From: a virus | Strand: one strand, 5' to 3' | Length of the DNA: 30,860 nucleotides | Virus record (IMG/VR): IMGVR_UViG_3300030116_000926 | Span: 1 to 30,860 of that record | Part shown: positions 1 to 30,860 of the stretch, in pieces | How the letters are laid out: each line of letters opens with the position of its first letter | How positions within the stretch are numbered: position 1 is the first letter of the stretch | Position numbers and translations under genes: made by a program | Notes under the pieces: generated by a model | Database searches by the model: none | Told to the model about the DNA's origin: nothing | What the model saw: only the letters and a program-made list of their open reading frames with translations

Positions 1-2
1 TA

Positions 3-38
3 ATAATTGACAAACTCAGAAATGGAACACACCAATGA
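3..38 (+). CDS. 3' end of an upstream gene (partial)
   Basis: The frame is open from the left edge and ends at the TGA at 36-38, which overlaps the next start codon as ATGA. The visible last residues are IIDKLRNGTHQ. The four-base overlap is the same junction style used by the following pair of genes, which is why this frame is taken as the end of a real gene. Nothing can be said about its function. Confidence 0.45.
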   Translation: MIDKLRNGTHQ

Positions 39-286
39 AAAGTGTAGCTATAGTATTTGCATTGTTAATGTTTAACTCTCAAGGAGATCCTAATGATTGG
101 AAAACAGCAAACGAATTTATGTATACTGACAACCTCAGTTCTTGTATGAAATTAAGACGTGAGGCTACTCGCAACACCAATGGTAAACTTACATTCAAAT
201 GTATCCAGGCAGAGGTAGAGCTTGAGGTACTTGCTATTGATAAATCATTGCATATAAATAAAATAATAAGGGAAGTTAAAAAATGA
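35..286 (+). CDS. small exported protein, unknown function
   Basis: This 83-residue protein begins with a short basic and hydrophobic leader (MKSVAIVFALLMF, residues 1-13) that looks like a signal peptide. The rest is hydrophilic with two cysteines, near residues 37 and 56, that could form a disulphide in the periplasm. It lies directly upstream of the amidase gene and overlaps it by four bases (ATGA), so the two are probably translated together. By position it could be a lysis accessory protein, but there is no lipobox and no clear spanin signature, so that role is only a guess. I do not recognise the family. Confidence 0.7.
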   Translation: MKSVAIVFALLMFNSQGDPNDWKTANEFMYTDNLSSCMKLRREATRNTNGKLTFKCIQAEVELEVLAIDKSLHINKIIREVKK

Positions 287-696
287 TAGAAAGAAAAGAA
301 ACTAAATACATAGTAATACATTGTGCCGATACTCCAGCTGATATGGATATTGGAGTAGAAACAATTCGTAAATGGCACGTTGAAGAAAGAGGATGGTCAG
401 ACGTAGGCTATCACTACATAATAAAAAGAGATGGCAAGATAGAACCAGCAAGAGATGTTAAGCTGCAAGGCGCACACGCAGTTGCAGTTAATGATAAATC
501 AGTAGGCATATGCCTTATCGGTAGAGGTGATAACTTTACAGAAGATCAGTTTTTCGGATTACACAATTTAATTAATACTCTTAATAGTATGTATGAAGAT
601 CTTGAAATCATTGGACACTCTGATGTAGAACCTAAGAAACCAAACTGCCCTGGGTTCGATGTCAAGCAATGGGTTCAAGACGAATTTTATGGCTAA
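283..696 (+). CDS. N-acetylmuramoyl-L-alanine amidase (endolysin, T7 lysozyme type)
   Basis: This 137-residue protein is an Amidase_2 domain that cuts the bond between MurNAc and L-alanine in peptidoglycan. Visible hallmarks are the opening strand YIVIHCADTP with zinc ligand His13, Tyr43-His44 in GYHYIIKRDG, His64 in the GAHA motif, His112 in GHSD and Cys122 in NCPGFD, with Lys118/Lys119 just before it. These correspond to the zinc ligands and catalytic Tyr/Lys of T7 gp3.5 (151 residues), so the enzyme looks intact and is only slightly short. T7 gp3.5 also binds the phage RNA polymerase, but no such polymerase is visible here, so lysis is the likely sole job. There is no signal peptide, so release to the wall would need a holin. 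It overlaps the preceding gene by four bases and the phosphoesterase by eight. Confidence 0.93.
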   Translation: MIERKETKYIVIHCADTPADMDIGVETIRKWHVEERGWSDVGYHYIIKRDGKIEPARDVKLQGAHAVAVNDKSVGICLIGRGDNFTEDQFFGLHNLINTLNSMYEDLEIIGHSDVEPKKPNCPGFDVKQWVQDEFYG

Positions 697-1399
697 AGGA
701 TATTCATCTGTACTTATCATTTCAGATTTACATTGCCCCTGGGAACATCCAGATGCATTTGAATTTTTAAAAACATTAAAGAAAAAAATTAAGCCAGAGT
801 TTGTACTGAACCTGGGTGATGAGGCAGATGCTCATGCTCTATCTATGCATGATACAGATCCAGATCTTATGTCAGCTGGTGATGAGCTGATTGCTGCTAA
901 AGAAAGACTACATGAATTAGAAAAAATTTTTCCAGAAATGACACTACTACATTCTAATCACTCTTCATTAATATACAGAAGAGCATTGAAACATGGAATG
1001 CCTAGAGCTTATTTAAAAAATTATAATCAATTCCTGGATGTAGGCCCAGGATGGAAATGGGTAGACGATATTAACTTTTCATTATCAGATGGATCAGAGG
1101 CATTTGCTACACATGGCATGGCAGCTGATGGTATAAAGTTAGCAATGCAATATGGTAAGAACGTAATCCAGGGCCATTTCCATTCTAAGTTTTCTATACA
1201 ATACTTTTCAAATCCAGATAAATTAATATGGTCAATGCAATGTGGATGTTTAACAAAACAAAGTTCACTTGCTTTTCAGTATGCTCGTAATTTTAAAATG
1301 AGATTTGTAATTGGTACCGGAGCTATCATCGATGGGCAGCCAAAGTTATATGCGATGAGATTAGATAAGTCTGGTAGATGGGATGGGGAGATTGTCTAA
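689..1399 (+). CDS. calcineurin-like metallophosphoesterase
   Basis: This 236-residue protein carries the ordered metal-binding motifs of the calcineurin-like phosphoesterase superfamily: D13-L-H15, G43-D44-x-x-D47, N90-H91 (here SNH rather than the usual GNH), H142 and G162-H163-F-H165. The superfamily hydrolyses phosphomonoesters or phosphodiesters with two metal ions; the substrate here is unknown. The start was set at the ATG at 689, overlapping the amidase end by eight bases. An in-frame ATG at 659 would give a 38-base overlap and ten extra residues with no family resemblance. Related genes occur in other phages beside lysis or replication genes. It could act on nucleic acid or on a nucleotide, and the sequence does not decide between them. 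Confidence 0.85.
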   Translation: MAKGYSSVLIISDLHCPWEHPDAFEFLKTLKKKIKPEFVLNLGDEADAHALSMHDTDPDLMSAGDELIAAKERLHELEKIFPEMTLLHSNHSSLIYRRALKHGMPRAYLKNYNQFLDVGPGWKWVDDINFSLSDGSEAFATHGMAADGIKLAMQYGKNVIQGHFHSKFSIQYFSNPDKLIWSMQCGCLTKQSSLAFQYARNFKMRFVIGTGAIIDGQPKLYAMRLDKSGRWDGEIV

Positions 1400-1532
1400 A
1401 CAAAAGTTTACAACATACATTCCTCATGAACCTATCTTTCACAAAACAAATATTGGAAGGAACCCTAGCAAAGCAAAGATGAACAAAGCAAAACGTAGAA
1501 GTTTTAAAAAGTATAGGGGCCAGGGCCGGTAA
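1383..1532 (+). CDS. 49-residue basic protein
   Basis: This short frame starts at the ATG at 1383 inside the end of the phosphoesterase gene and stops at a TAA whose last base opens the next ATG (TAATG at 1530-1534). It encodes a very basic protein: the C-terminal part reads AKMNKAKRRSFKKYRGQGR. Without it there would be a 130-base hole in a genome that otherwise leaves almost none, and its tight junctions on both sides match the other genes. It may bind nucleic acid, but no family is recognised. Confidence 0.6.
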   Translation: MGRLSKQKFTTYIPHEPIFHKTNIGRNPSKAKMNKAKRRSFKKYRGQGR

Positions 1533-1834
1533 TGAAATCAGTTACCATCAATGGACACAAACATATTTTTTTAAAATTAAATTGGATTGATATTGTCGGA
1601 GCATCAACGTTAGAAGGTGACGTAGATTTCCAGAGAATGAAATGCGCCAACATTACGACAGAGGCTTATCTGTATGATACCTTTGAATTAGATGGTAGAG
1701 AATTTGTTAGAACGTTTGCATCCTACTCATTAGACGATGACTTTGGATATGGGGATAGAAACTGTTATCCGATTGAAGTGTTCGATAAACGCAGCCAAAA
1801 AGCCATCAGAGATGCTCTCAGATTGATGAAATAG
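1532..1834 (+). CDS. hypothetical protein, 100 residues
   Basis: The start codon overlaps the stop of the preceding small gene (TAATG). The protein is soluble and acidic with mixed strand and helix content. It has a DDDFGYGDRN acidic stretch near residues 68-77 and ends in a basic helix. No family is recognised. It is the last rightward gene before a convergent junction with the leftward module, so it probably closes this transcription unit. Confidence 0.65.
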   Translation: MKSVTINGHKHIFLKLNWIDIVGASTLEGDVDFQRMKCANITTEAYLYDTFELDGREFVRTFASYSLDDDFGYGDRNCYPIEVFDKRSQKAIRDALRLMK

Positions 1835-1890
1835 GGTGTCCTGGTATGATTGGTCATCTAAATAAACAACCCTCTGTAAAGCTCTCTAAA

Positions 1891-2142
1891 TCATTTTAAA
1901 GGCAAAGTGTTCGGTATGTTCTCTACTGCACCTAGTAATCCAGCACAATAGCTACCAAACACTACATAATCATAATAAAAAAATCTATCTAGCTCTACTC
2001 CATCCTTCTTTAGAATGGTTCTATGTTCAAAAAGATTATGCTCATATGGATCTTCGCATTGCTCTTCTGTAACCTGGACAGGATGCATCATATATAATTC
2101 AGATCCTACTCCCAGGTACAGAATTAAAACAAAAAGTTTCAC
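1891..2142 (-). CDS. small exported protein, GTG start, unknown function
   Basis: This 83-residue protein starts at GTG (2142-2140), sharing GTGA with the stop of the upstream gene. Residues 1-15 (MKLFVLILYLGVGSE) form a plausible signal peptide. The remainder has two cysteines, in the EQCEDPYEH and GSYCAGLLG segments, that could pair in an oxidising compartment. It is the last gene of the leftward module. Together with the gene at 35-286 it is one of two small signal-bearing, two-cysteine proteins in the left part of the window, though the two are not visibly related. Function unknown. Confidence 0.6.
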   Translation of the reverse strand: MKLFVLILYLGVGSELYMMHPVQVTEEQCEDPYEHNLFEHRTILKKDGVELDRFFYYDYVVFGSYCAGLLGAVENIPNTLPLK

Positions 2143-2375
2143 GTTCTACAAAGTTGTACTAGCTGCTTAATTATATCTTGAATTCTATCTTTCAATCTTG
2201 ATATAATCTTGTCCTTTAATTTTACGTTTTCATACAGGGCCACAACCTCTTGCTCTTTTTTAGATAGCTTAGTCTGTAGCTCTCCATTCAAATCTTGATG
2301 GCCCTTGTTTATTGTTTTAAGATTATTGTTTTCTTCTGTTAGTCTATCTATTTCTTTTGTCTGATCAGTTACCAC
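2139..2375 (-). CDS. short coiled-coil protein, GTG start
   Basis: This 78-residue protein is almost entirely heptad-like helix rich in Glu, Lys, Leu and Asn (for example KEIDRLTEENNNLKTI), so a coiled-coil dimer is likely. It has no membrane segment. The GTG start is supported by a strong Shine-Dalgarno sequence, AAAGGAGG, placed six bases upstream. It overlaps the upstream gene by 11 bases and the downstream one by four, so it belongs to the same leftward operon. The lack of a membrane anchor argues against an Rz-type spanin. Function unknown. Confidence 0.65.
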   Translation of the reverse strand: MVTDQTKEIDRLTEENNNLKTINKGHQDLNGELQTKLSKKEQEVVALYENVKLKDKIISRLKDRIQDIIKQLVQLCRT

Positions 2376-2661
2376 TTATATCCTCCTTTGGATTTTTGAG
2401 TAGAGTATGCTCAATCTTATCTCGATGAGTTTCAATCCATAATTCCTCGTATGGTCTGATCTCTACATTCTGAGGAAACATTGGACTATGTTCTAATTTA
2501 GAAAGCTCTGGTGATCCAGCTGTATAAAATTTTTGGTATTGATCTACATGAGGTTCTTCATTACCTGGGATAGTAATAACAACTACATCCTCAACACCAT
2601 TGAATGCCTCAATCAAACCTTTGATAAATTCTTTTCTAAATCTACTCTTAAAAATTTTCAT
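2365..2661 (-). CDS. hypothetical protein, 98 residues
   Basis: The ATG overlaps the stop of the LexA-like gene as ATGA. The N-terminus is basic (MKIFKSRFRKEF), followed by a mixed alpha/beta segment with VEDVVVITIPGN and an acidic, Glu-rich C-terminal half. No family is recognised. Its place directly after the winged-helix gene in the leftward operon suggests it is expressed with that regulator. Confidence 0.6.
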   Translation of the reverse strand: MKIFKSRFRKEFIKGLIEAFNGVEDVVVITIPGNEEPHVDQYQKFYTAGSPELSKLEHSPMFPQNVEIRPYEELWIETHRDKIEHTLLKNPKEDISGN

Positions 2662-2873
2662 TGTAATATCTCAATGCCTCTAGGTTTAGCTGGATATACT
2701 TTGATAAGATTATCTCTTTCAAGTAAACGCAGCATTCGATGAACGTTAGAATGTACACACTCCATATGCCTAGCACATTCTCTTACAGTAGGAGGTACCT
2801 CTTCCTTCTGCACATATCCTTTTATAAACTTAAATAGTTTTAGTTGCTTTTTAGTTATCATTAGATTTGACAT
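2658..2873 (-). CDS. stand-alone LexA-type winged helix DNA-binding protein
   Basis: The 71 residues match the N-terminal DNA-binding domain of LexA: a first helix with TKKQLKLFKFIKGY, then PPTVRECARHMECVHSNVHRMLRLLERDN, then a wing ending in RGIEI. The recognition helix region is around residues 38-52. LexA itself is about 200 residues and carries a C-terminal serine protease that self-cleaves on DNA damage; that part is completely absent. This protein therefore cannot respond to RecA by self-cleavage and is probably a small repressor or a competitor at LexA-type operators. The start follows AAGGAG seven bases upstream and overlaps the Erf gene end by 23 bases. Confidence 0.78.
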   Translation of the reverse strand: MSNLMITKKQLKLFKFIKGYVQKEEVPPTVRECARHMECVHSNVHRMLRLLERDNLIKVYPAKPRGIEILQ

Positions 2874-3549
2874 TACCTAGCTCCTTTTTAATTTTCTGGA
2901 ATTCTTTAATCATCAAATCATAAGTAACTTGATCTACTTCTTTTAAGTTATTCCAAGAATGTAATTGATTGTTTTCTTGCTCTTCTAGCATTGCTAATTT
3001 TTTATCAAGATCCATTGACTTATCTTGTGCAATACCTTTAGCACCTCTTACTTGAGTTCTTGCGTACTCTTTCCATTTATTTAGATCGTCAACTCTCTTG
3101 TCCTGGTTAGCATTACCATCATCATCCTCACTAGGTAATCCATAGATAGCCTGGAGAGAATATCTTTTTGCATATGTAATGGCAGATCCCAGGGCCTGGC
3201 TATCTGCATAATTATTATTCTTAGGTACAACTAAGTATCTAGATTTAATTACATCACTACATTCATCATGCATTAATATTGTTGTAACGTACATAGTAGT
3301 ATCAATCACACCATCGATGTTTTCTTTTTCATAATCAATAGTCTGTGTAAATGCTAATCCATGTTTGGCCCCTTGATTAGCAGCTGCAATTACATCTTCT
3401 AATCCAGCATAGCTTGATTTAAAATAAGGATTTTTTTTATCTTTAATAGCTACATGGGCCTCTTCCTGGAAGGCACTTAAAGCCTCTACTAATTTATTAG
3501 TGTTTGGTTTCGTCATCGTCATCTTGTCCTGGTTCTTCTGGTTCATCAT
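2851..3549 (-). CDS. erf: Erf-type single-strand annealing recombinase
   Basis: This 232-residue protein carries the ERF family signature: a KNPYFKSSYAGLEDVI segment near residues 39-54, then NNYADSQALGSAITYAKRYSL near 111-132 and IYGLPSEDDDGN just after it. Erf of phage P22 forms rings on single-stranded DNA and anneals complementary strands, which supports recombination-dependent replication and genome circularisation. Family length is usually 180-250 residues, so it looks complete. The C-terminal third is charged and helical. A strong GGAGG lies just before two adjacent ATGs, so either of those is the start, giving an overlap of about 50 bases with the preceding gene. Its partner exonuclease lies two genes upstream in the same operon. 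Confidence 0.88.
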   Translation of the reverse strand: MMNQKNQDKMTMTKPNTNKLVEALSAFQEEAHVAIKDKKNPYFKSSYAGLEDVIAAANQGAKHGLAFTQTIDYEKENIDGVIDTTMYVTTILMHDECSDVIKSRYLVVPKNNNYADSQALGSAITYAKRYSLQAIYGLPSEDDDGNANQDKRVDDLNKWKEYARTQVRGAKGIAQDKSMDLDKKLAMLEEQENNQLHSWNNLKEVDQVTYDLMIKEFQKIKKELGNVKSNDN

Positions 3550-3766
3550 TTCCTCCTGGTTTAATTACATTAATTGTGAATATTTGATTTTGTATCCTAA
3601 GACCTTCGATAGCTGCAAAGGCAACATACTCAATAAGCTCTTCAATAAAATCTTGCTCAAGATCAAGGCCGGTTTTTTCATAAAGTTTTTTTTGAAAAAT
3701 TTTAGCAGCCTCTTTCCGAGCAAGAATGTAAGCATTGATTTGAAATAATGTTTTAGGATCATGCAT
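3497..3766 (-). CDS. hypothetical protein with acidic tail, 89 residues
   Basis: The N-terminal two thirds are predicted helix, and the last part is strongly acidic (NDEPEEPGQDDDDETKH). It overlaps the exonuclease end by eight bases and the Erf start by about 50. Lying between a nuclease and its annealing protein, it may be an accessory of that recombination pair. The acidic tail could mimic DNA or dock on a partner protein. No family is recognised. Confidence 0.6.
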   Translation of the reverse strand: MHDPKTLFQINAYILARKEAAKIFQKKLYEKTGLDLEQDFIEELIEYVAFAAIEGLRIQNQIFTINVIKPGGNDEPEEPGQDDDDETKH

Positions 3767-4733
3767 CTATTTGTTTTAGACTAAACCTCCTGGATACTGT
3801 AGGTGGTTCATCCTTTAACTGTATTGTTTTAGTTTTAACTCTCTTCATTGTAGTATGTTTTATTTCATACCCATTACACAGAGCTACCTCATTCTCACCT
3901 AAGATTTCTTTTATCCTGGTAGAAACTTCATCCTCTATTTCTTTACCAGCTGATATAGTTTTCTTAGCTGCAAGAAAATCATCTATAAGTTTTGGTAATT
4001 CATTATTAGTAGATAGATCTGTAACATCCTTAGATCCATTACCTTTAATAAATTTAGATGCCTCTTTACTAGATCCCATTTTGTACCAAAGATTTTTACC
4101 TTCCATGATACCATCTAATCTGTAAAAGAATTCTGTAGCAGCATCTATTAACTTAGTCTGCATCTCTTTAGTTGGTTTATAAACAAACCATTGCAGCTCC
4201 CAGCCTTTACAAAGTCTAACTAATATTGCGTATTGATATTTAGTAGTTAGCATCTGGGCCTGGACTTGCATCTGATAGATCTCAGATACAGGATCAGTAG
4301 CAGCTCCAGAATAATTTTTAATCTCAACCACACCCAATCCACTTAGGCTGTGGGAGGTGCCTAAGTAGTCAGTTAAGTTTAAAACACCTTTGATATTAAT
4401 AATACCATCCAGGCTGCTACCGATCTTTCCTCCATCAACATCATAAAAGAAAGCCTCGGTGCTAATGCCAAACTCTAGAGGGAGCTTTTCTCCGGCAACT
4501 TTTGTGATTTGATCTTGGAATAGTTTAAAGATGGCCGGTTCTAAAAAAGTACCAGCCTGTACTTTAGGATTGTTAGCTAAGTCATTGTTAGCCTCCTTCC
4601 CTTGTAAGGCATCTTTTGCCTTTTCCAACTCCTCATTCGGAGAGTTGAAACCTATGTAACCTTTATCAGTTAATACTACTTTTGGTAAACTACTCGAACC
4701 AATTTCTCTTCTGGCATATGATGTAAGTTTCAT
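3759..4733 (-). CDS. YqaJ/lambda-exonuclease-like PD-(D/E)XK nuclease
   Basis: This 324-residue protein has the core of the YqaJ viral recombinase family: Glu65 in GTFLEP, Asp109 in GSSLDGII, the E137-I-K139 motif in GVVEIKN, and a glutamine-rich helix YQMQVQAQM (about 153-161). These are the metal and catalytic residues of PD-(D/E)XK exonucleases that resect a double-strand end to give single strand for an annealing protein, here Erf. The start at 4733 was chosen because GGGAGG lies six bases upstream and the ATG overlaps the previous stop as TAATG. A longer frame from 4769 lacks such a site. The C-terminal ~120 residues are helical and charged and are not assigned. Confidence 0.82.
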   Translation of the reverse strand: MKLTSYARREIGSSSLPKVVLTDKGYIGFNSPNEELEKAKDALQGKEANNDLANNPKVQAGTFLEPAIFKLFQDQITKVAGEKLPLEFGISTEAFFYDVDGGKIGSSLDGIINIKGVLNLTDYLGTSHSLSGLGVVEIKNYSGAATDPVSEIYQMQVQAQMLTTKYQYAILVRLCKGWELQWFVYKPTKEMQTKLIDAATEFFYRLDGIMEGKNLWYKMGSSKEASKFIKGNGSKDVTDLSTNNELPKLIDDFLAAKKTISAGKEIEDEVSTRIKEILGENEVALCNGYEIKHTTMKRVKTKTIQLKDEPPTVSRRFSLKQIDA

Positions 4734-4891
4734 TAGATACCTCCCATCATTCCATAGTACGATGCACACTTATCAGACAACGCACACATAAATATTGTGA
4801 AAAAATATACTGCTACTAACATTAAAAGAAATGCAGCGCACTCTACAGCAAACATAATTTGCTCTTTATATTTTTTAATTAGACTTATCAT
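4733..4891 (-). CDS. 52-residue single-helix membrane protein
   Basis: A short basic N-terminus (MISLIKKYKEQ) is followed by one strongly hydrophobic segment at about residues 12-36 and a small tail with a second cysteine-containing stretch. AAAGGAG six to seven bases upstream of the ATG at 4891 decides this start over an in-frame ATG at 4975, which would overlap the recombinase gene. Its stop forms a TAATG junction with the nuclease gene. It could be a small holin-like or membrane-modifying early protein, but nothing proves it. Confidence 0.6.
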   Translation of the reverse strand: MISLIKKYKEQIMFAVECAAFLLMLVAVYFFTIFMCALSDKCASYYGMMGGI

Positions 4892-4964
4892 TTTTACTCC
4901 TTTGTTAATTGGTGTCCAAATGATCTCATATAGTTTATCTTTTAGACACATATTGTTTATATTT

Positions 4965-5633
4965 CTAATGAACATTAACAGAACATCTGTTCATGTAATT
5001 TCTTACAGTAGAAGGGTACCAAGTATTAGATCTCTTACTAGCTGTAGGAATTCCTCTTGCATTAAGAGCATTAGCAATACCTTGTAATGATGTTACTCCA
5101 TACTTTTTAAGATCTGCAATAATAGTATTGATGACAACAGCTTTACGATCTGCCTCTTGCATCTTAGATTTGTTACCTTTTTTTGCAGCTTGTTTTAGGT
5201 TCTTAGTATTACCTAAAGTAACACCTCTCTTCTTAGCCTGGGCCAAAGCAGCTTTAGTATTTTTTCTTAACGTATCTAAATACTGTTCAGCTACAGCAGC
5301 TAAAACTTGTATTGTAAATTTATTAACTGAAGGCATATCACAACACACAAACTCAATCTTGCTTTCCATTAATGATGCTGTGAATGCTAAGTTACGAGAT
5401 AGTCTATCAAGTCTAGCTATAACTAAGATTGCTTTTTCTTTTTTACATAGCTCCAGGGCCTGTGTTAGTTGTGGTCTATTATTTTTAGATCCACTTTCCT
5501 CTTCCTGGAATACTTGCAGCAACTGATCATTCTTAACAAACTCATTAATAGTTTGTAATTGATCACTAGCTCCATAACCTTGCTTACCTTGTTTGTCTGT
5601 ACTAACTCTAGTGTAACCTACATACTTAATCAT
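4965..5633 (-). CDS. serine site-specific recombinase (resolvase/invertase family)
   Basis: This 222-residue protein has the N-terminal resolvase catalytic domain: YTRVSTDKQ with the nucleophile Ser11 and Arg9, and the ARLDRLSRN motif with Arg74, Asp76, Arg77 and Arg80. A long linking helix follows (about residues 115-140), then a C-terminal DNA-binding region containing NARGIPTASKRSNTWYPSTV. It is much shorter than large serine integrases (450-600 residues) and slightly longer than Tn3-type resolvases (~185). It could resolve genome multimers, invert a segment or act as an integrase. No paired crossover sites were recognised. GAGAGGAG precedes the ATG, which overlaps the upstream stop as ATGA. 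Confidence 0.87.
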   Translation of the reverse strand: MIKYVGYTRVSTDKQGKQGYGASDQLQTINEFVKNDQLLQVFQEEESGSKNNRPQLTQALELCKKEKAILVIARLDRLSRNLAFTASLMESKIEFVCCDMPSVNKFTIQVLAAVAEQYLDTLRKNTKAALAQAKKRGVTLGNTKNLKQAAKKGNKSKMQEADRKAVVINTIIADLKKYGVTSLQGIANALNARGIPTASKRSNTWYPSTVRNYMNRCSVNVH

Positions 5634-6070
5634 TTTGCTCTCCTCTCTTTTAAAAGTTTCATTGCATATTTGTAGCCTTCATTATCTTCATAAAAAGTTA
5701 AATCAGCTTTGGCATTAATTTTGATATTTAGAAGATCAATGTTACTCATAGATCTAAATTGTTTCTTCCAGGCATTTTCATATGCTTTAGAAATAATACC
5801 ACCAACAATTAAGTTATGAGTTTGAACTGTATTGATAGGCCCAGCTACTTTCCATTTACCCTGGTATTCATTACTTAGAATGATAGGTGTTTTTTTACCT
5901 TGTTTGATTTTTTTCTTATCAATAAAGCTCTCTTCTATTTTATGCAGCATATCTCTAACTCTTTTGTATGCTCTAGGTTCAACGTAAAGCTCTATTTTTT
6001 GATGTTTAAAATCCTTTGGATCCATATGATTAGTTTTGAATTCAAAGTATTTCTTTTTCTTTTTAACCAT
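5630..6070 (-). CDS. hypothetical basic protein, 146 residues
   Basis: This is the first gene of the leftward module. The start at 6070 follows AAAGGGAGG, five bases upstream; a frame reaching 6181 would run through the promoter region and lacks this signal. The protein opens with a lysine run (MVKKKKKYFEF) and is basic throughout, with a mixed alpha/beta middle containing TVQTHNLIVGGIISKAYENAW. It may bind DNA, and by position might work with the recombinase that starts in its stop codon. No family is recognised. Confidence 0.65.
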   Translation of the reverse strand: MVKKKKKYFEFKTNHMDPKDFKHQKIELYVEPRAYKRVRDMLHKIEESFIDKKKIKQGKKTPIILSNEYQGKWKVAGPINTVQTHNLIVGGIISKAYENAWKKQFRSMSNIDLLNIKINAKADLTFYEDNEGYKYAMKLLKERRAK

Positions 6071-6169
6071 GTTTCCTCCCTTTGTTAATGGTCTTATATT
6101 GTTCATGTATAATAATATATATATTAAATATATATTTTCAAGCATCTTAACAAAATAAAGGAAAAATAA
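6071..6169. promoter_or_regulatory. divergent control region between leftward and rightward early genes
   Basis: These 99 bases separate two divergent transcription units and contain a long alternating AT stretch at 6107-6137. A leftward promoter can be proposed (see the separate entry). For the rightward genes only weak candidates are visible, such as TTGTTC at 6099-6104 with TATTAA 17 bases later. Two opposing promoters would overlap here, so a single repressor could switch both. The neighbouring ribbon-helix-helix protein is an obvious candidate. Confidence 0.55.
6112..6141 (-). promoter_or_regulatory. candidate sigma70 promoter for the leftward operon
   Basis: Read leftward, TTGAAA (6141-6136) and TATTAT (6117-6112) are separated by 18 bases, each differing from the bacterial consensus at one position. 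The expected start is near 6105, giving a leader of about 35 bases before the ATG at 6070. The area is extremely AT-rich, which makes chance matches more likely. Confidence 0.5.
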
Positions 6170-6343
6170 ATGCAACCTCAATTAACCCCCATTTATCTGA
6201 AGTTTCCGAGCAAACTGAAGGATAAGTTAAAAAAAGAGGCTAAGAAAAACAGGGTATCGATGGTGAAATTCATAACCGATGCTGTTGAATTAGCTTTAAA
6301 CTCAAAACCACAATATCAAAAGAGAGGAAAAAATGTCAGATAA
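6170..6343 (+). CDS. ribbon-helix-helix DNA-binding protein
   Basis: This 57-residue protein has the CopG/Arc-type pattern: a strand with alternating residues (QLTPIYLKFP, about 4-13), a lysine-rich helix SKLKDKLKKEAKKN, a turn at RVS and a second helix MVKFITDAVELAL (about 31-43). Such proteins dimerise and insert the paired strands into the DNA major groove. It is the first rightward gene after the divergent control region and starts behind AAAGGA. Autorepression and control of the opposite operon are plausible. It overlaps the next gene by 11 bases. Confidence 0.75.
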   Translation: MQPQLTPIYLKFPSKLKDKLKKEAKKNRVSMVKFITDAVELALNSKPQYQKRGKNVR

Positions 6344-6728
6344 AATAAATCCAGATCATTACAAAAACAATTCAATAGAAACTTGTGATGCTACATTCTC
6401 ACAACTATCAGAGGCAGAAATACTTGGGGCCTGTAAGTTTAATATAGCTAAGTACATATTCAGAGCTGGTAAAAAAGTACAAACGTTAGAAGGTACCAGG
6501 GATGATGTTGGCAAGGCCCATTGGTATTGTGAGAGATTGCTGCAAGAGCTTACTAACATGATCAATAAAAGAAAAAAAACAAAACGAAAAGATCCAACTG
6601 AAATTGATTTGGATGATTTAACAGAGGATGATCTACAGGAGCTGCTTGATCCAACATACAAAAGAAAGAGCAAGGTAGTAGATTTTAAAAAGAAGGAGGA
6701 TCACAATGGCGACACCAATACCAAATAA
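6333..6728 (+). CDS. DUF3310 protein (T7 gp1.7-like domain)
   Basis: This 131-residue protein begins with the DUF3310 pattern: INPDHYKNNSIETCD, then GACKFNIAKYIFRAGKK, then DVGKAHWYCERLL at about residues 5-70. The same domain occurs in T7 gp1.7, a nucleotide kinase acting on dGMP and dTMP, so a role in deoxynucleotide metabolism is possible. Many DUF3310 phage proteins have not been tested. The second half is a lysine-rich linker followed by an acidic segment (EIDLDDLTEDDLQELLD), which is not part of the domain. AGAGAGGAAAA precedes the ATG. Confidence 0.78.
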   Translation: MSDKINPDHYKNNSIETCDATFSQLSEAEILGACKFNIAKYIFRAGKKVQTLEGTRDDVGKAHWYCERLLQELTNMINKRKKTKRKDPTEIDLDDLTEDDLQELLDPTYKRKSKVVDFKKKEDHNGDTNTK

Positions 6729-7245
6729 CGTTATACGACCACCAAAAGGTACAGAGTATAAAATCAAAAATGGTAAACCCATAAAGGTAATTGAAAACAA
6801 ACCAAAGCCAAATAGTACAGAGATGAGAATATCAATCCTGGAGCATCAACAAAAACAAATCCAGGATGAGTTAGCGATGCTAAGACAATTCAACAACAGC
6901 AAAGTTAAACCAGCTAAGAATAGATTGTTCTTGAAGGATGTATTGATTGCTGTCTGTAAGTACACAGATCTCAATCCTCATGATATTTTATCTCCGGATA
7001 GAACAGCTTACTTAGTTAGGGCCAGAAGTTTATTCATGAATTTGTGCCTGGAGCTTACAGGCTATGGAGTAACATTCATTGGTAGAAAGTGTGGTATGCG
7101 AGATCATACAACTGTCTGCTATCATGAAAAACAAAAGGCAGAGAGAAAGGGCCATTGGTCACTAAGCAAGGATACAGGCATAAAGTTATGGGCAGACTAC
7201 GAACAAATTAGAAAGCAACTACTTGATGCCAAAAAAGAAAGCTGA
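6706..7245 (+). CDS. stand-alone DnaA domain IV (DnaA-box-binding) protein
   Basis: This 179-residue protein has a C-terminal half that matches the DNA-binding domain IV of bacterial DnaA. Residues ~78-145 include VCKYTDLNPHDILSPDRT, RARSLFMNLCLELTGYG and the signature GMRDHTTVCYH (residues 130-140, equivalent to GGRDHTTV in DnaA). The AAA+ ATPase and oligomerisation domains of DnaA (about 450 residues in full) are absent. The N-terminal ~70 residues instead form a proline- and lysine-rich arm and a short coiled coil (RISILEHQQKQIQDELAML). It could bind DnaA boxes on the phage origin or on the host chromosome. AAGGAGG lies five bases upstream of the ATG. It overlaps both neighbours by about 20 bases. 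Confidence 0.85.
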   Translation: MATPIPNNVIRPPKGTEYKIKNGKPIKVIENKPKPNSTEMRISILEHQQKQIQDELAMLRQFNNSKVKPAKNRLFLKDVLIAVCKYTDLNPHDILSPDRTAYLVRARSLFMNLCLELTGYGVTFIGRKCGMRDHTTVCYHEKQKAERKGHWSLSKDTGIKLWADYEQIRKQLLDAKKES

Positions 7246-8077: not shown

Positions 8078-8084
8078 CAATATA

Positions 8085-8113: not shown

Positions 8114-8137
8114 TTATAAATGCAGAAGAAATAAAAG

Positions 8138-8158
8138 ATACCTGGCAGAATACCTGGC
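8138..8158 (+). repeat. direct repeat ATACCTGGC x2, 12-base period
   Basis: The nine bases ATACCTGGC occur at 8138-8146 and again at 8150-8158 with AGA between them. A spacing close to one helical turn would place two protein-binding sites on the same face of the DNA. Each copy also contains a CCWGG pentamer, so it adds to the window-wide excess of that word. Confidence 0.55.
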
Positions 8159-8176: not shown

Positions 8177-8272
8177 TTGCATACCCTTGCCCCCTGGGGT
8201 GCGTATATCTATAGGGGGGTATCTCACAATTTTTTTGCAGAAAAAACATGAAATAAACTAACGAGGAAATAT

Positions 8273-24199: not shown

Positions 24200-27162
24200 T
24201 GTCAAAACCAGATTTTAAAATAGACACTATAGAAAACCAAGACAATTCTTATTTAAACAAAAAATTAGATAAGATAGCTGAAAATATTCTTCCTCAAGAA
24301 AAAGAAGTTATTGGTAATAGTAACAATGACCAGGTTATATCAGATAATGAGTTAATAGAAAAAACTAAGATCCTAGAAGAGCAAGAAGATAACGAAGTTT
24401 TAGTTGCATCTTTATTTCCTAAAAAATTTCCTAAACCTAAAAAGAAAGAAACTCATACAGACAAAACTCATGGCAGTACCATTGATGAGGCTGTAGAAAA
24501 ACAACAAGAAATATTAGCTACTAAAGTTCCAGACAATCAAATGTTTGTTGTTGAAGAAGGAACAGGAAACATAATCTTTAAACAATTTAATGATGCCGAG
24601 TTAAAAATTATAGAAGAAACTATGCTTGATTTACAAGCTGGTAAATTAAAAATTAAAAAAGGTTCATTACAAACTACATTACGAAATGCTGATCATCCAT
24701 CTCTATTTAAAGATGTTGCAACTTTTCAAGATTTCGTAGCTACTGTTTTTAAAGATAACATTGAAATTGCCAAACGAGGAAAAATGTCAATGGAAGAAAT
24801 AGCAGCTGCTGCTGCTAAGTATGGCAGAAATGATATGTACATGAAAATATTAAAAAGAAAACCTGGTGAGCCATTTAATGCTGAAGTGGCTTACAGAGCT
24901 ATTATAGAAGTTTCTGTAGCAAGAGCAGAGGTAGATAGACTTGCTAATATTGTTATGTCAGACAAAGCTACAGCAGCAGATGTAGAATTATTTTACAGAA
25001 CGTTTGCATTGTATGGATCTTTATTTTCACAAACTGCTGGTGCATTATCAGAAAGTGGTAGAACACTTGGTATCATATCTAAAATGGATACTCCAAAAGT
25101 TGAGGCTATAGATGAATTAGCTAAAATATTAGAAACAATGAATGTAGATCCAACAGATGTAAAAGCTGCACAAAGAATTGCAAACGCATATTTAGAATTA
25201 GAACCTCATCAAAAATCTAAATTTGCTAAAGATGGAATTGTAACAAAATTTAGAGATGCCTGGGCAGAGATTTGGATTAACACTAGATTGATGTCACCAA
25301 TCACACACACAGTAAACATTGCTGGTAACATAACATTCAATACACTTAGAATAGCAGAGTATGGTATTGCAGCTGGTTTGAATAAAATACCAGGACTTTC
25401 TTCAGCTGATGGTGTGATGTTTAATGAAGTTTTTGCTATGATCAAATCATTTAGATATGGATCTAAGTTAGCTATAGGTAATGCTTACTCAGCTTTTAAA
25501 TCTGGAGAGAGTGTTACTAATAAATTAGATCTTAGAAAAGATAAAGCAATATCAAAAAGTTTAGCTGGTAAATATGAAGATACAGCTCTTGGTTCTTTTT
25601 TTGAATACATGGGTACAGTAGTTAGATTTCCTGGAAGAATGTTAGTTGCAGAAGATGAGATGATGAAAGGTTTTATATTCCAAATGGAATTAGAAAGAAT
25701 TGCAACAAGCAAAATGAATTCATACATTAAAGAGTTTCCTAATGACAAAGCTGGAGCTGAGTTAGTTTATAAACAAACACTAGCAGATCCAGATAGTTCT
25801 ACTGTTAAAGAAATACAAGAGAGTATGTTGGAAGGTACATTCCAAAAAGATTTACCTCCAGGAGTATTCTCTAAATTACAAAGCATTTTAAATGTACCAG
25901 AAATGAAAATGTTTGTTCCATTCTACAAAACTATTATGAACATTTTCTTTGAGAGTAACAAAAGAAATCCAGCTCTAGCTTGGTTATCTCAAGATGTACG
26001 AAAAAATATTTCTGGTAAAAATGGAAAGAAAGCTCAACAATTAGCTATAGCAAAACTATCAGCTGGTGCTACTTTGATGTATCAATTTGGTAGCATGGCA
26101 TATGGAGCAAATGTTCATGATCAAGGATTAATGATTACAGGAATGATGCCTACAAGAAAAGCAGAGAGAGAGGCATTTATGAGAAAAGGATTACAGCCTT
26201 ACTCAATATGCGTTATGGGTGAAGATGGTTTGTATGAGTGTACTTCTTATGCAAGATTTGATCCTGTATCTTCTTTATTGGCTATCTCTGCTGACTTTGC
26301 TTATATGGCTAGTAGACCAGGACAATACGAAGATCCTAATTTTGCAAACAACATGGAAAGTTTATTTAAAGCTGGATTAGCATCTATCTTCCCATACATC
26401 ATGCAGCAACCATTTGCTCAAGGTATAACTGAGCTTGGTGCTTTATTTCAACCTGGATATGGAGATCCAGAAAATATGGCAACAAGATCATTAACACAAC
26501 TTGTAGAAAAATTAACAGAAGTTACAGTTGGTATTGGTGTTAACCCTCTAGGTACTTTTGGAAACTACTTAACAAAACATTCTGATCCTAAGATCTATGA
26601 CACAATGATAACAACTGACCAGGCATCCTGGTGGAGAGAAAATTTTGATGGAGATATACCAGCTCCTATTAGAGCATTCTACAAACAATTTAATAAAGCA
26701 ATGCATCAATCACCATTCTTCAATCCAGAGTTAGAAGTAAGAGTTAATTTATGGGGTGAAGAAATGGTAGGCCCAGAGATGAATGTATTTTCTCCTATAA
26801 GAACAACTAAAGAAAAATATAATAGAGTTGATGATTGGTTAGTTAAATTAGGTTTAGGTATACCAATGCCAAAAGCATTTATTGGTGGAATTCCATTAAC
26901 ATCAGAAGAGTACAAAGGAATTATTAAATACATGAATTCCGATATTGATGGTGAAGGTACAATGTTAGATGAGATGTTAGATCTTATAGACAATGATCCA
27001 GATTGGGAAGAAATGTTAGCTGGAGATAAATTACAAGCATTAAAAGATATTGTTTCAAATAGAAAACAATTAGCTATAGAAAACTTTTTAGAGAACAATC
27101 CTGTGTTTAATGACAAAGTAGAATTATTAAAAGAAAGAGTAAACAGGAAAGGTAAGAGATAA
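24199..27162 (+). CDS. largest internal/ejection protein, gp16 position
   Basis: At 987 residues this is the longest gene and occupies the gp16 position (1318 residues in T7). The first ~100 residues are charged and low in complexity, with a Lys/Pro patch FPKKFPKPKKKE. A helical domain with KMSMEEIAAAAAKYG and an EVDRLANIV block follow. In the middle, TRLMSPITHTVNIAGNITFN (about 368-387) matches a pattern common in large phage internal proteins. I see no transglycosylase signature, so wall cutting during entry is not assured. Codon use is the most AT-rich in the window. Confidence 0.62.
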   Translation: MSKPDFKIDTIENQDNSYLNKKLDKIAENILPQEKEVIGNSNNDQVISDNELIEKTKILEEQEDNEVLVASLFPKKFPKPKKKETHTDKTHGSTIDEAVEKQQEILATKVPDNQMFVVEEGTGNIIFKQFNDAELKIIEETMLDLQAGKLKIKKGSLQTTLRNADHPSLFKDVATFQDFVATVFKDNIEIAKRGKMSMEEIAAAAAKYGRNDMYMKILKRKPGEPFNAEVAYRAIIEVSVARAEVDRLANIVMSDKATAADVELFYRTFALYGSLFSQTAGALSESGRTLGIISKMDTPKVEAIDELAKILETMNVDPTDVKAAQRIANAYLELEPHQKSKFAKDGIVTKFRDAWAEIWINTRLMSPITHTVNIAGNITFNTLRIAEYGIAAGLNKIPGLSSADGVMFNEVFAMIKSFRYGSKLAIGNAYSAFKSGESVTNKLDLRKDKAISKSLAGKYEDTALGSFFEYMGTVVRFPGRMLVAEDEMMKGFIFQMELERIATSKMNSYIKEFPNDKAGAELVYKQTLADPDSSTVKEIQESMLEGTFQKDLPPGVFSKLQSILNVPEMKMFVPFYKTIMNIFFESNKRNPALAWLSQDVRKNISGKNGKKAQQLAIAKLSAGATLMYQFGSMAYGANVHDQGLMITGMMPTRKAEREAFMRKGLQPYSICVMGEDGLYECTSYARFDPVSSLLAISADFAYMASRPGQYEDPNFANNMESLFKAGLASIFPYIMQQPFAQGITELGALFQPGYGDPENMATRSLTQLVEKLTEVTVGIGVNPLGTFGNYLTKHSDPKIYDTMITTDQASWWRENFDGDIPAPIRAFYKQFNKAMHQSPFFNPELEVRVNLWGEEMVGPEMNVFSPIRTTKEKYNRVDDWLVKLGLGIPMPKAFIGGIPLTSEEYKGIIKYMNSDIDGEGTMLDEMLDLIDNDPDWEEMLAGDKLQALKDIVSNRKQLAIENFLENNPVFNDKVELLKERVNRKGKR

Positions 27163-27230
27163 TGGTATTTTTTTGTTCTACTATACAAAACGACAACAGA
27201 ATATTAGGAATAATACATGGCAACATTTAG
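27162..27230 (+). CDS. possible 22-residue mini-gene
   Basis: An ATG shares the stop codon of the large ejection gene (TAATG), exactly as in the other junctions of this operon, and the frame ends at 27230 inside the fibre gene. The peptide (MVFFCSTIQNDNRILGIIHG and two more residues) resembles nothing I know. It could be a real coupling peptide that keeps ribosomes on the message until the fibre start at 27217, a remnant, or chance. Confidence 0.25.
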   Translation: MVFFCSTIQNDNRILGIIHGNI

Positions 27231-28341
27231 TGTAAACGATACAGCAAGAAGGGTACAATCTATTGTAGGATCTAGTAATAGAGCTGGGCCTTATACTTTT
27301 AACTTCCAGGTAAATGCTACGTCTGAGTTAAAAGTATACCAGAATGATACAGAGCTTACATTATCTACTCAATACTCTGCTGCTCTTAATTCTGATGGAA
27401 CAGGATCTATAACTTTTATAGATAACTCTGGATCCGGAGGTACTGATTATACTCCAGCGCAGAATGATCGTATTACTATTATTGGTGATCAACCATTGTC
27501 CAGGACTTCTGTTTTTACTACAGGATCTGTTATTACACCAGCAGCATTAGAAACTGATTTTGATAATGTAGTTATTAGACAACAACAATTAAAAGAAATT
27601 ACAGATAGATCTATTCAATTAAAACCTTCTACTGCTAGAACAGTAACAGGAACAGGAACCAATGGCCCTGTATTTTTTCCAGAGTTAGTAGCTAATAAAT
27701 TATTATCAGTTAATAATTCTGGTGATGCATTAGTAATGACATCTGAGATTGGATCTTTTAAAGGTAATTGGTCTGCAAGTACAAGTTACTTCCAAAGAGA
27801 TATTGTAAAAGACACTTCAACAAATAATATTTTTATAGCTAACGCAGATCACACATCTTCTGGATCTCAACCCTTAACTACAAATACTGATAGTGGTAAA
27901 TGGGATTTATTAGTGGATGCTGCATCAGCAACTACATCAGCAACTAATGCTGCCAACTCAGCAACAGCAGCTGCTAATAGTGCTACCCAGGCTGCAACGT
28001 CAGCTACGAATTCTGCTAACAGCGCAACTGCATCTGCATCATCAGCATCAACTTCAGCATCTGAGGCTACAGCAGCAGCAAATAGTGCAACAGCAGCAGC
28101 AGCATCAGCTACAAACGCAGCTGCACAATTAGATACTTTCCAGGATCAATATTTAGGAGTTCAATCATCAGATCCAACAACTGACTTAGATGGTGATCCT
28201 TTGACTTCCGGAGATGCTTATTATAATTCTTCGACAAATAGTTTTAAAGTTTACGATGGATCACAATGGAGAATAGCAACAATAGATACTTCTAGTTTTG
28301 CAACAACAGGACTAAGTATAGCCATGAGTGTGGCATTGTAA
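27217..28341 (+). CDS. tail fibre, T7 gp17-like virion-binding half
   Basis: This 374-residue protein starts with the T7 fibre N-terminal domain that binds the tail: FSVNDTARRVQSIVG, RAGPYTFNFQVN, LKVYQNDTEL, DRITIIGDQPLSRTS and DFDNVVIRQQQLKEITDRSI (about 3-132). A beta segment follows, then about 70 residues of Ala/Ser/Asn/Thr repeats (234-305), a trimeric-shaft type repeat. The C-terminal block contains DGDPLTSGDAYYNSST and VYDGSQWRI. T7 gp17 is 553 residues and ends in a receptor-binding tip. That tip is missing here, so receptor contact is probably supplied by the separate downstream proteins. Confidence 0.88.
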   Translation: MATFSVNDTARRVQSIVGSSNRAGPYTFNFQVNATSELKVYQNDTELTLSTQYSAALNSDGTGSITFIDNSGSGGTDYTPAQNDRITIIGDQPLSRTSVFTTGSVITPAALETDFDNVVIRQQQLKEITDRSIQLKPSTARTVTGTGTNGPVFFPELVANKLLSVNNSGDALVMTSEIGSFKGNWSASTSYFQRDIVKDTSTNNIFIANADHTSSGSQPLTTNTDSGKWDLLVDAASATTSATNAANSATAAANSATQAATSATNSANSATASASSASTSASEATAAANSATAAAASATNAAAQLDTFQDQYLGVQSSDPTTDLDGDPLTSGDAYYNSSTNSFKVYDGSQWRIATIDTSSFATTGLSIAMSVAL

Positions 28342-28354
28342 GAAAGGAGAATGA

Positions 28355-28687
28355 ATGGCACAAAATTTTAGAAACCAATTAACACATACTGCAATAGGTA
28401 CTAGCTATACTGATATTCTTACTCAGCTAGATAGCTTTGATACTTGTGTGGGTATTAGATTAGTTAATGTTTCATCAACATCTATTAACGTAACTTGTGC
28501 AATAGAAAATAGTTCTAATACAACAGAGCTAATTGTTAATGCACCAATCCCAGCTGGATCTTCGTTAGAATTGATTGATGGTGGAGCTAAGATAATTTTA
28601 AAGTCTGGCGATAAAATAAAAGCTAAAAGTGATACAGCATCATCACTAAAAGCTATTGTCAGTTTTATTGATGCTATTAGTTCATAG
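28355..28687 (+). CDS. small beta-rich tail-associated protein, 110 residues
   Basis: The protein is dominated by alternating strand patterns (for example CVGIRLVNVSSTSINVTCAI and ELIVNAPIPAGSSLELIDG). It lacks charged helices and ends in a hydrophobic strand. AAAGGAG lies upstream. Such small beta-sandwich proteins often sit between fibre genes as adaptors or collars. No family is recognised. Confidence 0.6.
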   Translation: MAQNFRNQLTHTAIGTSYTDILTQLDSFDTCVGIRLVNVSSTSINVTCAIENSSNTTELIVNAPIPAGSSLELIDGGAKIILKSGDKIKAKSDTASSLKAIVSFIDAISS

Positions 28688-28695
28688 GAGTTAAT

Positions 28696-29016
28696 ATGGG
28701 TTATATCGGACAACAAGTATTTACAGGAGTTATAACTAGCTCTGATAGTATAGATGCTGGAGTTATTGAAGTATCAGATCTATCTTCAACAGCACAAGAC
28801 GAGCTAGGTAAAATAGATTTATATGGTTTTACTAAAACTAATGGATCTGGAAATCAGAAAGAAGATTTAGTGTTAACTAAAACTGCTGGAACAGATAATA
28901 TATCTGTAGCTAACAATGATACTACACAATCAGATTTGTATGATGAAAGTTTTTTTGCAAAGAAAGGATTAACATTTACTGTCAATAGTGATGGTGAGTT
29001 GGAGGTAACAATCTAA
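28696..29016 (+). CDS. small fibre-region protein with YIG start
   Basis: This 106-residue protein starts MGYIGQQVFTG, which is similar to the MPYIGRNLQTG opening of the truncated gene at the right end. The same short opening may be a docking peptide for the tail. The rest is acidic and strand-rich, with SDLSSTAQDELGKIDLYGF in the middle. AGGAG precedes the ATG. The next gene starts within its stop codon. Function is inferred only from location. Confidence 0.6.
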   Translation: MGYIGQQVFTGVITSSDSIDAGVIEVSDLSSTAQDELGKIDLYGFTKTNGSGNQKEDLVLTKTAGTDNISVANNDTTQSDLYDESFFAKKGLTFTVNSDGELEVTI

Positions 29017-30452
29017 TGGCCCTTACAAGATTAGGTACAAAAGCTGTAGAAAGTTCTTTAACAAATATTACAGACCAAGGAACAGAGGGTAGTAGATTAG
29101 CAATCGGAACAACCGGACAAAGAGGATCTACACAAGGTCAATTTAGATTTAATACTTCTCTTAGTCTTGCAGAATATTATGATGGTAATGCATTTAAAAT
29201 TATAGATAGTCCACCAACAATTTCTAGTATTTCACCAACAACAGTAACAGATGCAAATGCTAACATTACAATTCTTGGAAGTGGGTTTGCAAGTGGAGCA
29301 ACAGTAAAGTTTGTTGGAAGTGATGGAACAGAATTTTCATCCCCAAGTGTTACAATAAATTCAGCTACACAAATTACAGCTACAACACCTAGTTCAGCAT
29401 TAACTGTAGCTAAAGAACCTTATGATATTGTAGTTACTAATAATTCTGGTTTATTTGCTATTTTAGCTGATGGATTAGATGCTGGTGGTTCTCCTACTTG
29501 GAATACCTCTGCTGGTACTATTGCAACTATTGGTGATAATGCAACCGGAACCCATGTAACAGTTTCAGCAACAGATCCAGATAGTCAAACCATTACTTAC
29601 TCTGTTCAATCTGGTTCTTTACCTGGGGGTACAAGTTTAAATACTTCTACCGGTGCAATATCTGGAGATGTAGCTGATGTTACTAATTCAACTACAAGCA
29701 CATTTACTTTAAGAGCAAGTGATGGTGTAAACAATACAGATAGAAGTTTTAACATTGTTGTAAATCCAATATTAGATGGTTCATCAGCAGCAAAAGCAAA
29801 CACTTCAGCAGCAGCAATTAAAACTGCAAGTGGAACAACAACAAATGGTGGTTACTATATTATTGATCCAAGTAATAGTTCAAATACAATCTATGCATAT
29901 TGCGATATGAATTTCGATGGTGGTGGATGGATGTTAGTTCATTCATCAAGAGGTAGTACATGGGATGGTAATACCGGTAATCAATCATTAACAAATTTTT
30001 ATAACAGTTCTCATTACGCAGAATACACAAGTGGAGAACCTCAAGACATTTATTCTAAACTAAGAACAAATTTTACTTTTACAGAATTATTAATTCAATG
30101 GACAGCTAACGCAGATATGAGTGGTGCTACAAATGCTACAAGACCGGTTTATACTATGGGTTCACAAGGTAGTTTAATTGGTATAAGTGCTAATCAAACA
30201 TTTAATAGAAAAAGTGGAAATACCGGTGCATTACCTACATCTGGTTTTCAACAATTAGGAGCTTACAATGCTGGTAAATTATATTATAAATTAGCGACAT
30301 CATCAGATCACAGAAATTTTGTATTTTCTAATCACACTAATAGCGACAACAATCAAGGTGGTTTTTATGGCTGGAGTGGACAACACAATAGTTATGCTTG
30401 GGGTTCATCTTTTAATCAAACTTGTTTAACAGTAGCTTTTTATATTAGATAA
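29016..30452 (+). CDS. multidomain adhesin: fibre anchor, IPT/TIG, Ig-like, fibrinogen-like
   Basis: This 478-residue protein appears to contain four parts. Residues 1-65 form an anchor with GQFRFNTSLSLAEYYDG, as in other phage fibre proteins. Residues 67-152 resemble an IPT/TIG fold: PTISSISPTTVTDANANITI, then GSGFASGATVKF and YDIVVTNNSG. Residues 158-250 look like a putative Ig domain (He_PIG) with VSATDPDSQTITYSV, LPGGTSLNTSTGAISG and RASDGVNN. Residues 258-478 match a fibrinogen-like module, with SGTTTNGGYYIIDPSN, YCDMNFDGGGWMLVHSS (about 295-311) and a GGFYGWSG segment near the end. Fibrinogen-type modules often bind acetylated sugars, so this is the best candidate receptor-binding protein. 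Domain names come from pattern memory. Confidence 0.72.
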   Translation: MALTRLGTKAVESSLTNITDQGTEGSRLAIGTTGQRGSTQGQFRFNTSLSLAEYYDGNAFKIIDSPPTISSISPTTVTDANANITILGSGFASGATVKFVGSDGTEFSSPSVTINSATQITATTPSSALTVAKEPYDIVVTNNSGLFAILADGLDAGGSPTWNTSAGTIATIGDNATGTHVTVSATDPDSQTITYSVQSGSLPGGTSLNTSTGAISGDVADVTNSTTSTFTLRASDGVNNTDRSFNIVVNPILDGSSAAKANTSAAAIKTASGTTTNGGYYIIDPSNSSNTIYAYCDMNFDGGGWMLVHSSRGSTWDGNTGNQSLTNFYNSSHYAEYTSGEPQDIYSKLRTNFTFTELLIQWTANADMSGATNATRPVYTMGSQGSLIGISANQTFNRKSGNTGALPTSGFQQLGAYNAGKLYYKLATSSDHRNFVFSNHTNSDNNQGGFYGWSGQHNSYAWGSSFNQTCLTVAFYIR

Positions 30453-30495
30453 TTATGTTTAAAAAAATTATAATAAAAGGAAATAAAAATTAAAG

Positions 30496-30860
30496 ATGCC
30501 ATACATAGGAAGAAATTTACAAACAGGGGAATACAAGCTCATAACATTAACAGAGAGCTTTGATGGTAATAGAACAGCCTTCACTATGTCAGAGAGTGTA
30601 CCATCTGAAAGAGTGCTTATGGTCATACTGTCTGGGGTACTCCAGCATTGGGGAGAGGCCTTTACTGTATCTGCAAATAAATTAAATTTTTCTGCTGCCC
30701 CATCAAATGGCGAAACAATCAAAATTTTAAAACTAGGAGATACTTTAAATATTGCTACTCCATCCCAGGGTACAGTAGGTACTGCTCAACTATCTACATC
30801 CGGAATATCAGCTGGTAAAGTATTTAAAGTAAATGATGCTGGTAATGCCTGGGAGTTAGG
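30496..30860 (+). CDS. tail fibre protein, N-terminal part (cut by window end)
   Basis: The frame runs open from the ATG at 30496 to the right edge, giving about 121 residues. It starts MPYIGRNLQTG and continues with a strand-rich domain (LTESFDGNRTAFTMSE, RVLMVILSGVLQHWGEAF, NKLNFSAAPSNGETIKIL) of the kind used to dock fibres, and then begins a repeat-like segment (GTVGTAQLSTSGISAGKVFK). The first ~60 codons use CTC, CTG, GGG and GAG more than the surrounding genes. A Shine-Dalgarno-like AAAAGG is rather far upstream. The rest, including any tip, lies outside the window. Confidence 0.72.
   Translation, partial: MPYIGRNLQTGEYKLITLTESFDGNRTAFTMSESVPSERVLMVILSGVLQHWGEAFTVSANKLNFSAAPSNGETIKILKLGDTLNIATPSQGTVGTAQLSTSGISAGKVFKVNDAGNAWEL

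Follow-up and report, generated by a model that had tools for sequence, protein, structure and literature searches.

The window analysed here comprises the whole 30,860-bp marine virus record IMGVR_UViG_3300030116_000926 and carries genes typical of a podovirus-like tailed phage. Our subject is the vocabulary of its DNA: a set of short words that it has lost and three palindromic words, CCWGG, GGSCC, and GCWGC (W, A or T; S, C or G), that it uses in excess. Protein scans with PHROGs and Pfam identified a terminase, a portal protein, the major capsid protein, tail proteins, an Erf annealing protein, a RecE/YqaJ exonuclease, a serine recombinase, and an amidase, along with DnaA-like and O-like replication proteins, and the window represents a nearly complete or complete phage genome. 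Among the window proteins scanned, which cover part of the tail genes, we detected no DNA polymerase and no methylase, modification, or restriction gene. The latter result lends no support to phage base modification, which the initial annotation had offered as one cause of the word bias. The closest cultured phage is the Methylophilales phage MEP301 and the next is the SAR11 phage EXVC031P Hodr (44%). The features referred to below are:

1..11330, both strands: lysis, recombination, replication, and terminase region, with its own region-specific null
2851..4769, minus strand: Erf-type annealing protein and RecE/YqaJ-type exonuclease (protein scans)
4965..5633, minus strand: serine recombinase with resolvase domain (protein scans)
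6706..8077, plus strand: DnaA C-terminal domain protein and O-like replication initiator (protein scans)
8078..8272: intergenic segment with three CCWGG sites (8141, 8153, 8193)
9176..10693, plus strand: terminase large subunit, 69% identity to OM43 phage MEP301
11090..11094, plus strand: sole remaining CCTGA by word count
11330..30860: structural region with lower G+C content at third codon positions (GC3, 0.156) and its own region-specific null
12695..14296, plus strand: head-tail connector (portal), 65% identity to MEP301 and 27.5-28% to the SAR11 phages HTVC010P and HTVC028P
16687..16739: intergenic segment with two GGSCC sites (GGCCC, GGGCC), 3' of the open reading frame (ORF) at 16405-16686

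Words purged from the window and its relatives

A scan of every 4- to 6-mer revealed at least 16 compact words of 4-5 bp that are absent or nearly absent from the window: ACGG, CCCG, CCGC, ACGCT, ACTGG, CACTG, CAGTC, CCTGA, CCTGC, GAAGC, GAATC, GACCC, GACTC, GAGAC, GGACC, and GGGAC. CCSGG, GCSGC, GCNNGC, and several 6-mers, including CAATTG, CTGCAG, and GATATC, are absent or nearly absent as well. The thresholds for calling a word absent are arbitrary; the main words lie far from the cut-off. Codon shuffling predicted 52 copies of GANTC, 47 of GAAGC, 43 of CCGT, 37 of ACTGG, and 32 of CCTGC, none of which occurs, and 49 of CCTGA, of which a single copy is left. For GCNNGC, 20 copies were expected and none was found. 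The lone CCTGA is the only survivor among the 17 core words. It falls in a Pro-Asp codon pair for which a synonymous escape is available, exactly one CCTGA is also present in each of the five relatives L003, L004, L008, L097, and L103, and the word is possibly a functional DNA site.

The absent words have the compact 4-6 bp form of Type II sites (GANTC, GGWCC, CCSGG, GCSGC, GCNNGC, CCGC). Several are sites of Type II or IIS enzymes: GANTC is the site of HinfI, GGWCC that of AvaII, CCSGG that of NciI, and CCGC that of AciI, and ACTGG, GTCTC, and GCNNGC belong to BsrI, BsmAI, and Cac8I. Avoidance of bipartite Type I sites was rejected, as no 3+3 pattern with a gap of 1-9 is absent from the window.

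About 150 loci were gathered via terminase and portal; these relatives are phylogenetically dependent and not independent replicates, whereas HTVC028P, discussed below, is independent. The sets of purged words change between relatives that share 70-87% DNA identity. L131 has lost GATC (0 vs 40 expected), which occurs 173 times in the window, L139 lacks GGSCC, GGCC, and CCGG and keeps GGWCC, L084 also keeps GGWCC, and L094 and L103 additionally lack CTNAG. GANTC is wholly lost from the window and from most relatives. Alignments show that sites present in permissive relatives have been replaced synonymously: GGSCC sites of the window align with GGACC or GGTCC in such relatives, and conversely, the change being a single central transition. 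The close relatives L003 and L004, which come from other metagenomes, share the single CCTGA and have gained none of the other core forbidden words. Relocated at random on the window background, the 55 substitutions of L003 would create about 6 such words and the 207 substitutions of L004 about 23.5. Considered singly on that background, a word would arise from 11 of the L004 substitutions, but L004 contains none of these words.

Forced and free copies of CCWGG, GGSCC, and GCWGC

The initial annotation had read CCWGG and GGSCC as over-used and GGWCC and CCSGG as absent, and whole-window counts bear this out. CCWGG occurs 109 times (CCAGG 53, CCTGG 56) and GGSCC 48 times (GGGCC 26, GGCCC 22), and GGACC, GGTCC, CCCGG, and CCGGG each have zero occurrences across 30,860 bp. 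Its estimate of about 60 CCWGG in the first 11 kb likewise agrees with approximately 63 CCWGG starts in the first 11.1 kb. An order-1 Markov model predicts 26 CCWGG, 13 GGSCC, 17 GGWCC, and 4 CCSGG and was rejected as the sole null, being too crude: the codon-preserving null gives 51 CCWGG, together with 9 GGSCC, 20-21 GGWCC, and 4 CCSGG. Part of the CCWGG count is thus coded by the proteins, in Pro-Gly and tryptophan contexts, and the CCWGG excess, although real under the codon null, is about two-fold overall and not nine-fold as first estimated. A null that also imposes trinucleotides and the absent words yields 57 CCWGG and 30 GGSCC, and the purge explains roughly half of the CCWGG and the majority of the GGSCC.

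The ban on CCSGG, GGWCC, and GCSGC leaves CCWGG, GGSCC, and GCWGC as the sole spellings of Pro-Gly, Gly-Pro, and GCN-GC codon pairs. Accordingly, the phase 0 words show no deviation from expectation (observed/expected 41/41, 20/20, and 85/85). For the remaining copies, we used a Gibbs null in which protein, codon usage, trinucleotides, and forbidden words are held fixed and variable sites are counted; it assumes fixed proteins and, except in the region-specific run, homogeneous codon weights. At these free sites, we found 60 CCWGG (8.9 expected), 24 GGSCC (4.0 expected), and 19 GCWGC (4.8 expected). This 4-7-fold excess is limited to exactly these three words, and each of the 29 remaining hyphenated 5-bp families is absent or has a ratio of 0.6-1.4. 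A general preference for palindromes was rejected, since pooled free-site counts reach 439 vs 468 for 6-mer palindromes and 518 vs 528 for hyphenated 7-mers.

The excess had been described in all codon phases and between genes. This holds for phases 1 and 2 and for intergenic DNA, where three CCWGG sites lie at 8141, 8153, and 8193; the excess in phase 0 is entirely forced. The initial annotation had missed the excess of GCWGC, the far larger set of absent words, and the layering into forced and free copies. It had noted that the excess forces CAG and CTG. Glutamine is written CAG in 33 of 37 C_G contexts compared to 10 of 60 A_G contexts, and leucine CTG is nearly restricted to C_G and G_C contexts. 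Similarly, the NNY codon preceding CTGG ends in C in 8 of 8 cases (20 of 22 in the clade), against a background of about 17%.

The raw signal is indeed weaker at 18-27 kb, as had been noted. However, lower GC3 (0.156, against 0.272) accounts for the difference. Because GC3 differs between regions, the single homogeneous null was replaced by region-specific nulls, under which the excess persists. In codon phases 1 and 2, positions 1..11330 contain 44 CCWGG vs 12.5 expected, 17 GGSCC vs 2.8, and 15 GCWGC vs 3.4, and positions 11330..30860 contain 18 vs 2.0, 7 vs 1.4, and 4 vs 1.3. Under these nulls, the fold excess of the stretch with the weaker raw signal equals or exceeds that of the rest.

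Across phages, enrichment or loss of the three words tends to be shared, which would fit recognition by related host functions. In HTVC028P, a cultured SAR11 phage unrelated to the window, the top three are the same (CCAGG 17 vs 2.9, GGACC 12 vs 1.7, GCAGC 13 vs 3.1), in HTVC024P the excess of the three words is weak, and HTVC010P, L067, and L139 have no excess. In HTVC011P, HTVC109P, and nearly so in Hodr, all three W-centred words are absent. HTVC019P (L158), HTVC031P (L159), and Hodr (L002) mirror the window in that GCWGC is absent or nearly absent and GCSGC reaches 4-7 times the codon expectation.

SAR11 phages and SAR11-like genomes

The forbidden lexicon of the window family, 31 words, was compared with the lexicons of nine cultured SAR11 phages and of phages of six other hosts. 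Overlap is strong in eight of the nine SAR11 phages: HTVC028P shares 11 of 13 words (p 2e-14), HTVC024P and Hodr 8 of 10 each, HTVC010P 7 of 11, HTVC011P 9 of 16, HTVC019P 7 of 12, HTVC031P 4 of 8, and HTVC109P 4 of 12. Phages of SAR116, Roseobacter, Prochlorococcus, Vibrio, E. coli, and Helicobacter share only 0-1 words, which is not significant. Judged from these words, the overlap suggests that the host is a SAR11 bacterium and that the lexicon is shaped by the host rather than by phage ancestry. A terminase search of bacterial genomes returned no low-GC marine match.

The bacterial genomes sampled come from one order, taken to be Pelagibacterales, whose members are AT-rich alphaproteobacteria of small genome size (0.7-1.5 Mb); proteorhodopsin was present in 53 of 58 genomes. 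A C5-methylase is present in 22 of 117 of these SAR11-like genomes, several times as a tandem pair. The neighbours of these methylases include HNH nucleases, a type II nuclease detected by PADLOC, and RE_NgoFVII, the Pfam family of an enzyme recognizing GCSGC. Methylase/nuclease pairs lie at L217:4349-7518, L216:4190-7323, L228:4102-6113, and L212:3029-5427. With regard to DISARM-like self-marking at CCWGG, which would involve a host DrmMII and nuclease module, one of the methylases matches DrmMII among many models; otherwise, the matches are to general C5-methylases. Such patchy methylase and nuclease systems, with their presumed recognition sites, would fit lineage-specific purges. A family of proteins of about 150 aa, one member of which has a weak EVE-domain match, adjoins C5-methylases (L212:3029-3493, L213:5165-5626, L214:5372-5824, L215:3979-4428). 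G065 (L174, L175, L176, L180), a 1.2-Mb AT-rich alphaproteobacterium, has five C5-methylase matches, one of them beside an Eco47II-type nuclease.

Applied to two SAR11-like chromosomes over 400 kb, a null of the type used for the free sites gave ratios of 0.95-1.06 for CCWGG, GGWCC, and GCWGC (CCWGG 1.05-1.06, GCWGC 1.00-1.05) and of 0.80-1.17 for GGSCC. These values near 1 show that the null is calibrated and make host mutation bias, one of the causes suggested earlier, unlikely. At free sites of these chromosomes (L231-L250), GAWTC reaches 0.37-0.38 of expectation and GASTC 1.26-1.55, a strong asymmetry between W and S within GANTC.

Proposed host restriction and competing explanations

The window probably derives from a SAR11-type podovirus-like phage whose purge evades pooled host restriction and in which positive selection acts in addition on the three words. 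The proposal of the initial annotation that selection at the DNA level is tied to host restriction or methylation is well supported by the purge of 16-plus words and by an excess that codon, trinucleotide, and forbidden-word nulls all leave in place. The phage would lose the recognition words of pooled, patchily distributed host systems with compact 4-6 bp sites, the allowed words being written usually via one synonymous central transition. Where positions are free to vary, a second, 4-7-fold positive selection would then favour these three words. Its likeliest cause may be that these words are C5-methylation sites in the usual hosts and that methylated copies are tolerated or advantageous, either for self-marking or as a shield from relaxed cleavage at near-cognate words. 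That some SAR11 phages have been positively selected to gain the C5-methylation palindromes CCWGG, GGNCC, and GCWGC, through a self-reading defence or such shielding, seems possible though doubtful. If true, phages would counter restriction by acquiring marker sites, the reverse of classical site avoidance.

Several observations weigh against this explanation. MEP301 infects an OM43 bacterium and has no purged words in its genome, and the SAR11 host of the window, the enzymes that would cut the purged words, and the cause of the free-site excess are things we infer. The lexicon of HTVC008M overlaps weakly (2 of 6 words, p 0.03), and some relatives that purge CCTGA and CCTGC, for example L067, have no free-site excess. 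RE_Eco47II (GGNCC type) gave no match over the cut-off in the 117 SAR11-like genomes and was present solely in two other small AT-rich alphaproteobacteria among the genomes searched. No restriction systems were reported in eight Pelagibacterales metagenome-assembled genomes (MAGs; PMC9516812). Finally, even spacing of the presumed markers was rejected (coefficient of variation 1.24), as the sites are clustered.

Among the alternatives, it is improbable that everything is a by-product of avoidance, with forbidden words inflating their allowed neighbours and no positive selection on the three words. Such inflation fully accounts for ACCGGT, CAGCTG, and CCGG and for the phase 0 copies of the three words, but the free CCWGG and GGSCC remain in excess (60 vs 8.9 and 24 vs 4.0) with the absent words forbidden and codon usage and trinucleotides fixed, the preference for CAG in C_G over A_G contexts is left unexplained, and L067, with similar forbidden neighbours, shows no excess. 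Even less probable, to the point of being remote, is an enrichment of CCWGG-like words by a mutation or repair bias, be it of the host polymerase or through very-short-patch (Vsr) repair of deaminated 5-methylcytosine. In the early region, CCAAG shows a mild depletion (7 vs 19), as such a bias would have it; however, C is preferred at the outer position no less than at the inner one (8/8, and 20/22 in the clade), SAR11-like chromosomes have CCWGG and GCWGC ratios near 1, and CTAGG/CCTAG is not depleted (34 vs 30 expected under the codon, trinucleotide, and absent-word null), which the initial annotation had already held against Vsr. We exclude Vsr repair itself, since the outer base is selected too and we found neither the depletion of CTWGG nor a confinement to the inner cytosine.

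Two further explanations concern the reason for the excess. A defence that spares DNA with enough methylated C5 sites and attacks DNA without them would lead phages to pack markers. The three words act as a block: the window family and HTVC028P carry them in excess, HTVC011P and HTVC109P lack them, and Hodr nearly lacks them. C5-methylases occur in SAR11-like genomes, some beside the protein with the weak EVE-domain match. Nevertheless, a defence of this type is hypothetical, GGSCC replaces GGWCC in some lineages, and the markers are clustered and unevenly spaced, which makes selection for self-markers somewhat unlikely. Alternatively, methylases may protect exact CCWGG, GGSCC, and GCWGC sites while the enzymes also cut words with one mismatch. 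Eight of the 14 forbidden 5-mers are one substitution away from an enriched word, against 2.0 for GC-matched random words (p ~1e-4), and so are 4 of 9 in L122 and L131 (p ~0.02). The relation is not significant in HTVC028P and HTVC024P, and avoidance of near-cognate words alone predicts no positive excess of the cognate ones, so that we regard it as a rather unlikely cause.

Compared with known systems, the window resembles phage T7 in its purge, T7 having nearly lost GATC (5 vs 117) and CCWGG (2 vs 49); T7 differs in that few words are affected and no palindromes are enriched. KHP30 infects Helicobacter pylori, a host known for many restriction systems, and like the window is AT-rich and lacks several words, but these are fewer and do not overlap with the window lexicon, and the three words show no free-site excess. 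According to the survey of Rusinov et al. (2018; PMC6286503), phages have eliminated 7.1% of the Type II sites of their hosts and less than 0.5% of sites of other types. The window shares with such restriction-site avoidance the complete loss of short recognition sites, but it has lost or nearly lost at least 16 words in 31 kb, many of them asymmetric and switching between relatives. Depletion of GANTC in about half of pelagiphages has already been published (Seong et al., 2022; PMC9516812), in agreement with its total loss from the window and most relatives. That paper covers GANTC alone and reports no restriction systems in SAR11 MAGs, whereas GANTC is one word among many in the window and C5-methylases with nuclease neighbours were found here in SAR11-like genomes.

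SAR11 bacteria are among the most abundant in the ocean and have been described as having few defences, and phage genomes can read out the restriction enzymes that act in them. The forbidden lexicon is common to unrelated SAR11 phages and varies by lineage, and it could aid host prediction where a phage is uncultured. Standard restriction theory does not easily accommodate the positive excess of three palindromes.

Two minor observations concern other features. The GGCCC and GGGCC at 16687..16739 look like the arms of a putative hairpin downstream of the ORF at 16405-16686. In the 60,596-base contig L066/G002 (L169, L170), a late-gene block occurs twice in similar form (for example at L169:16967-19199 and L170:8802-10596), and the contig possibly consists of two joined phage genomes.

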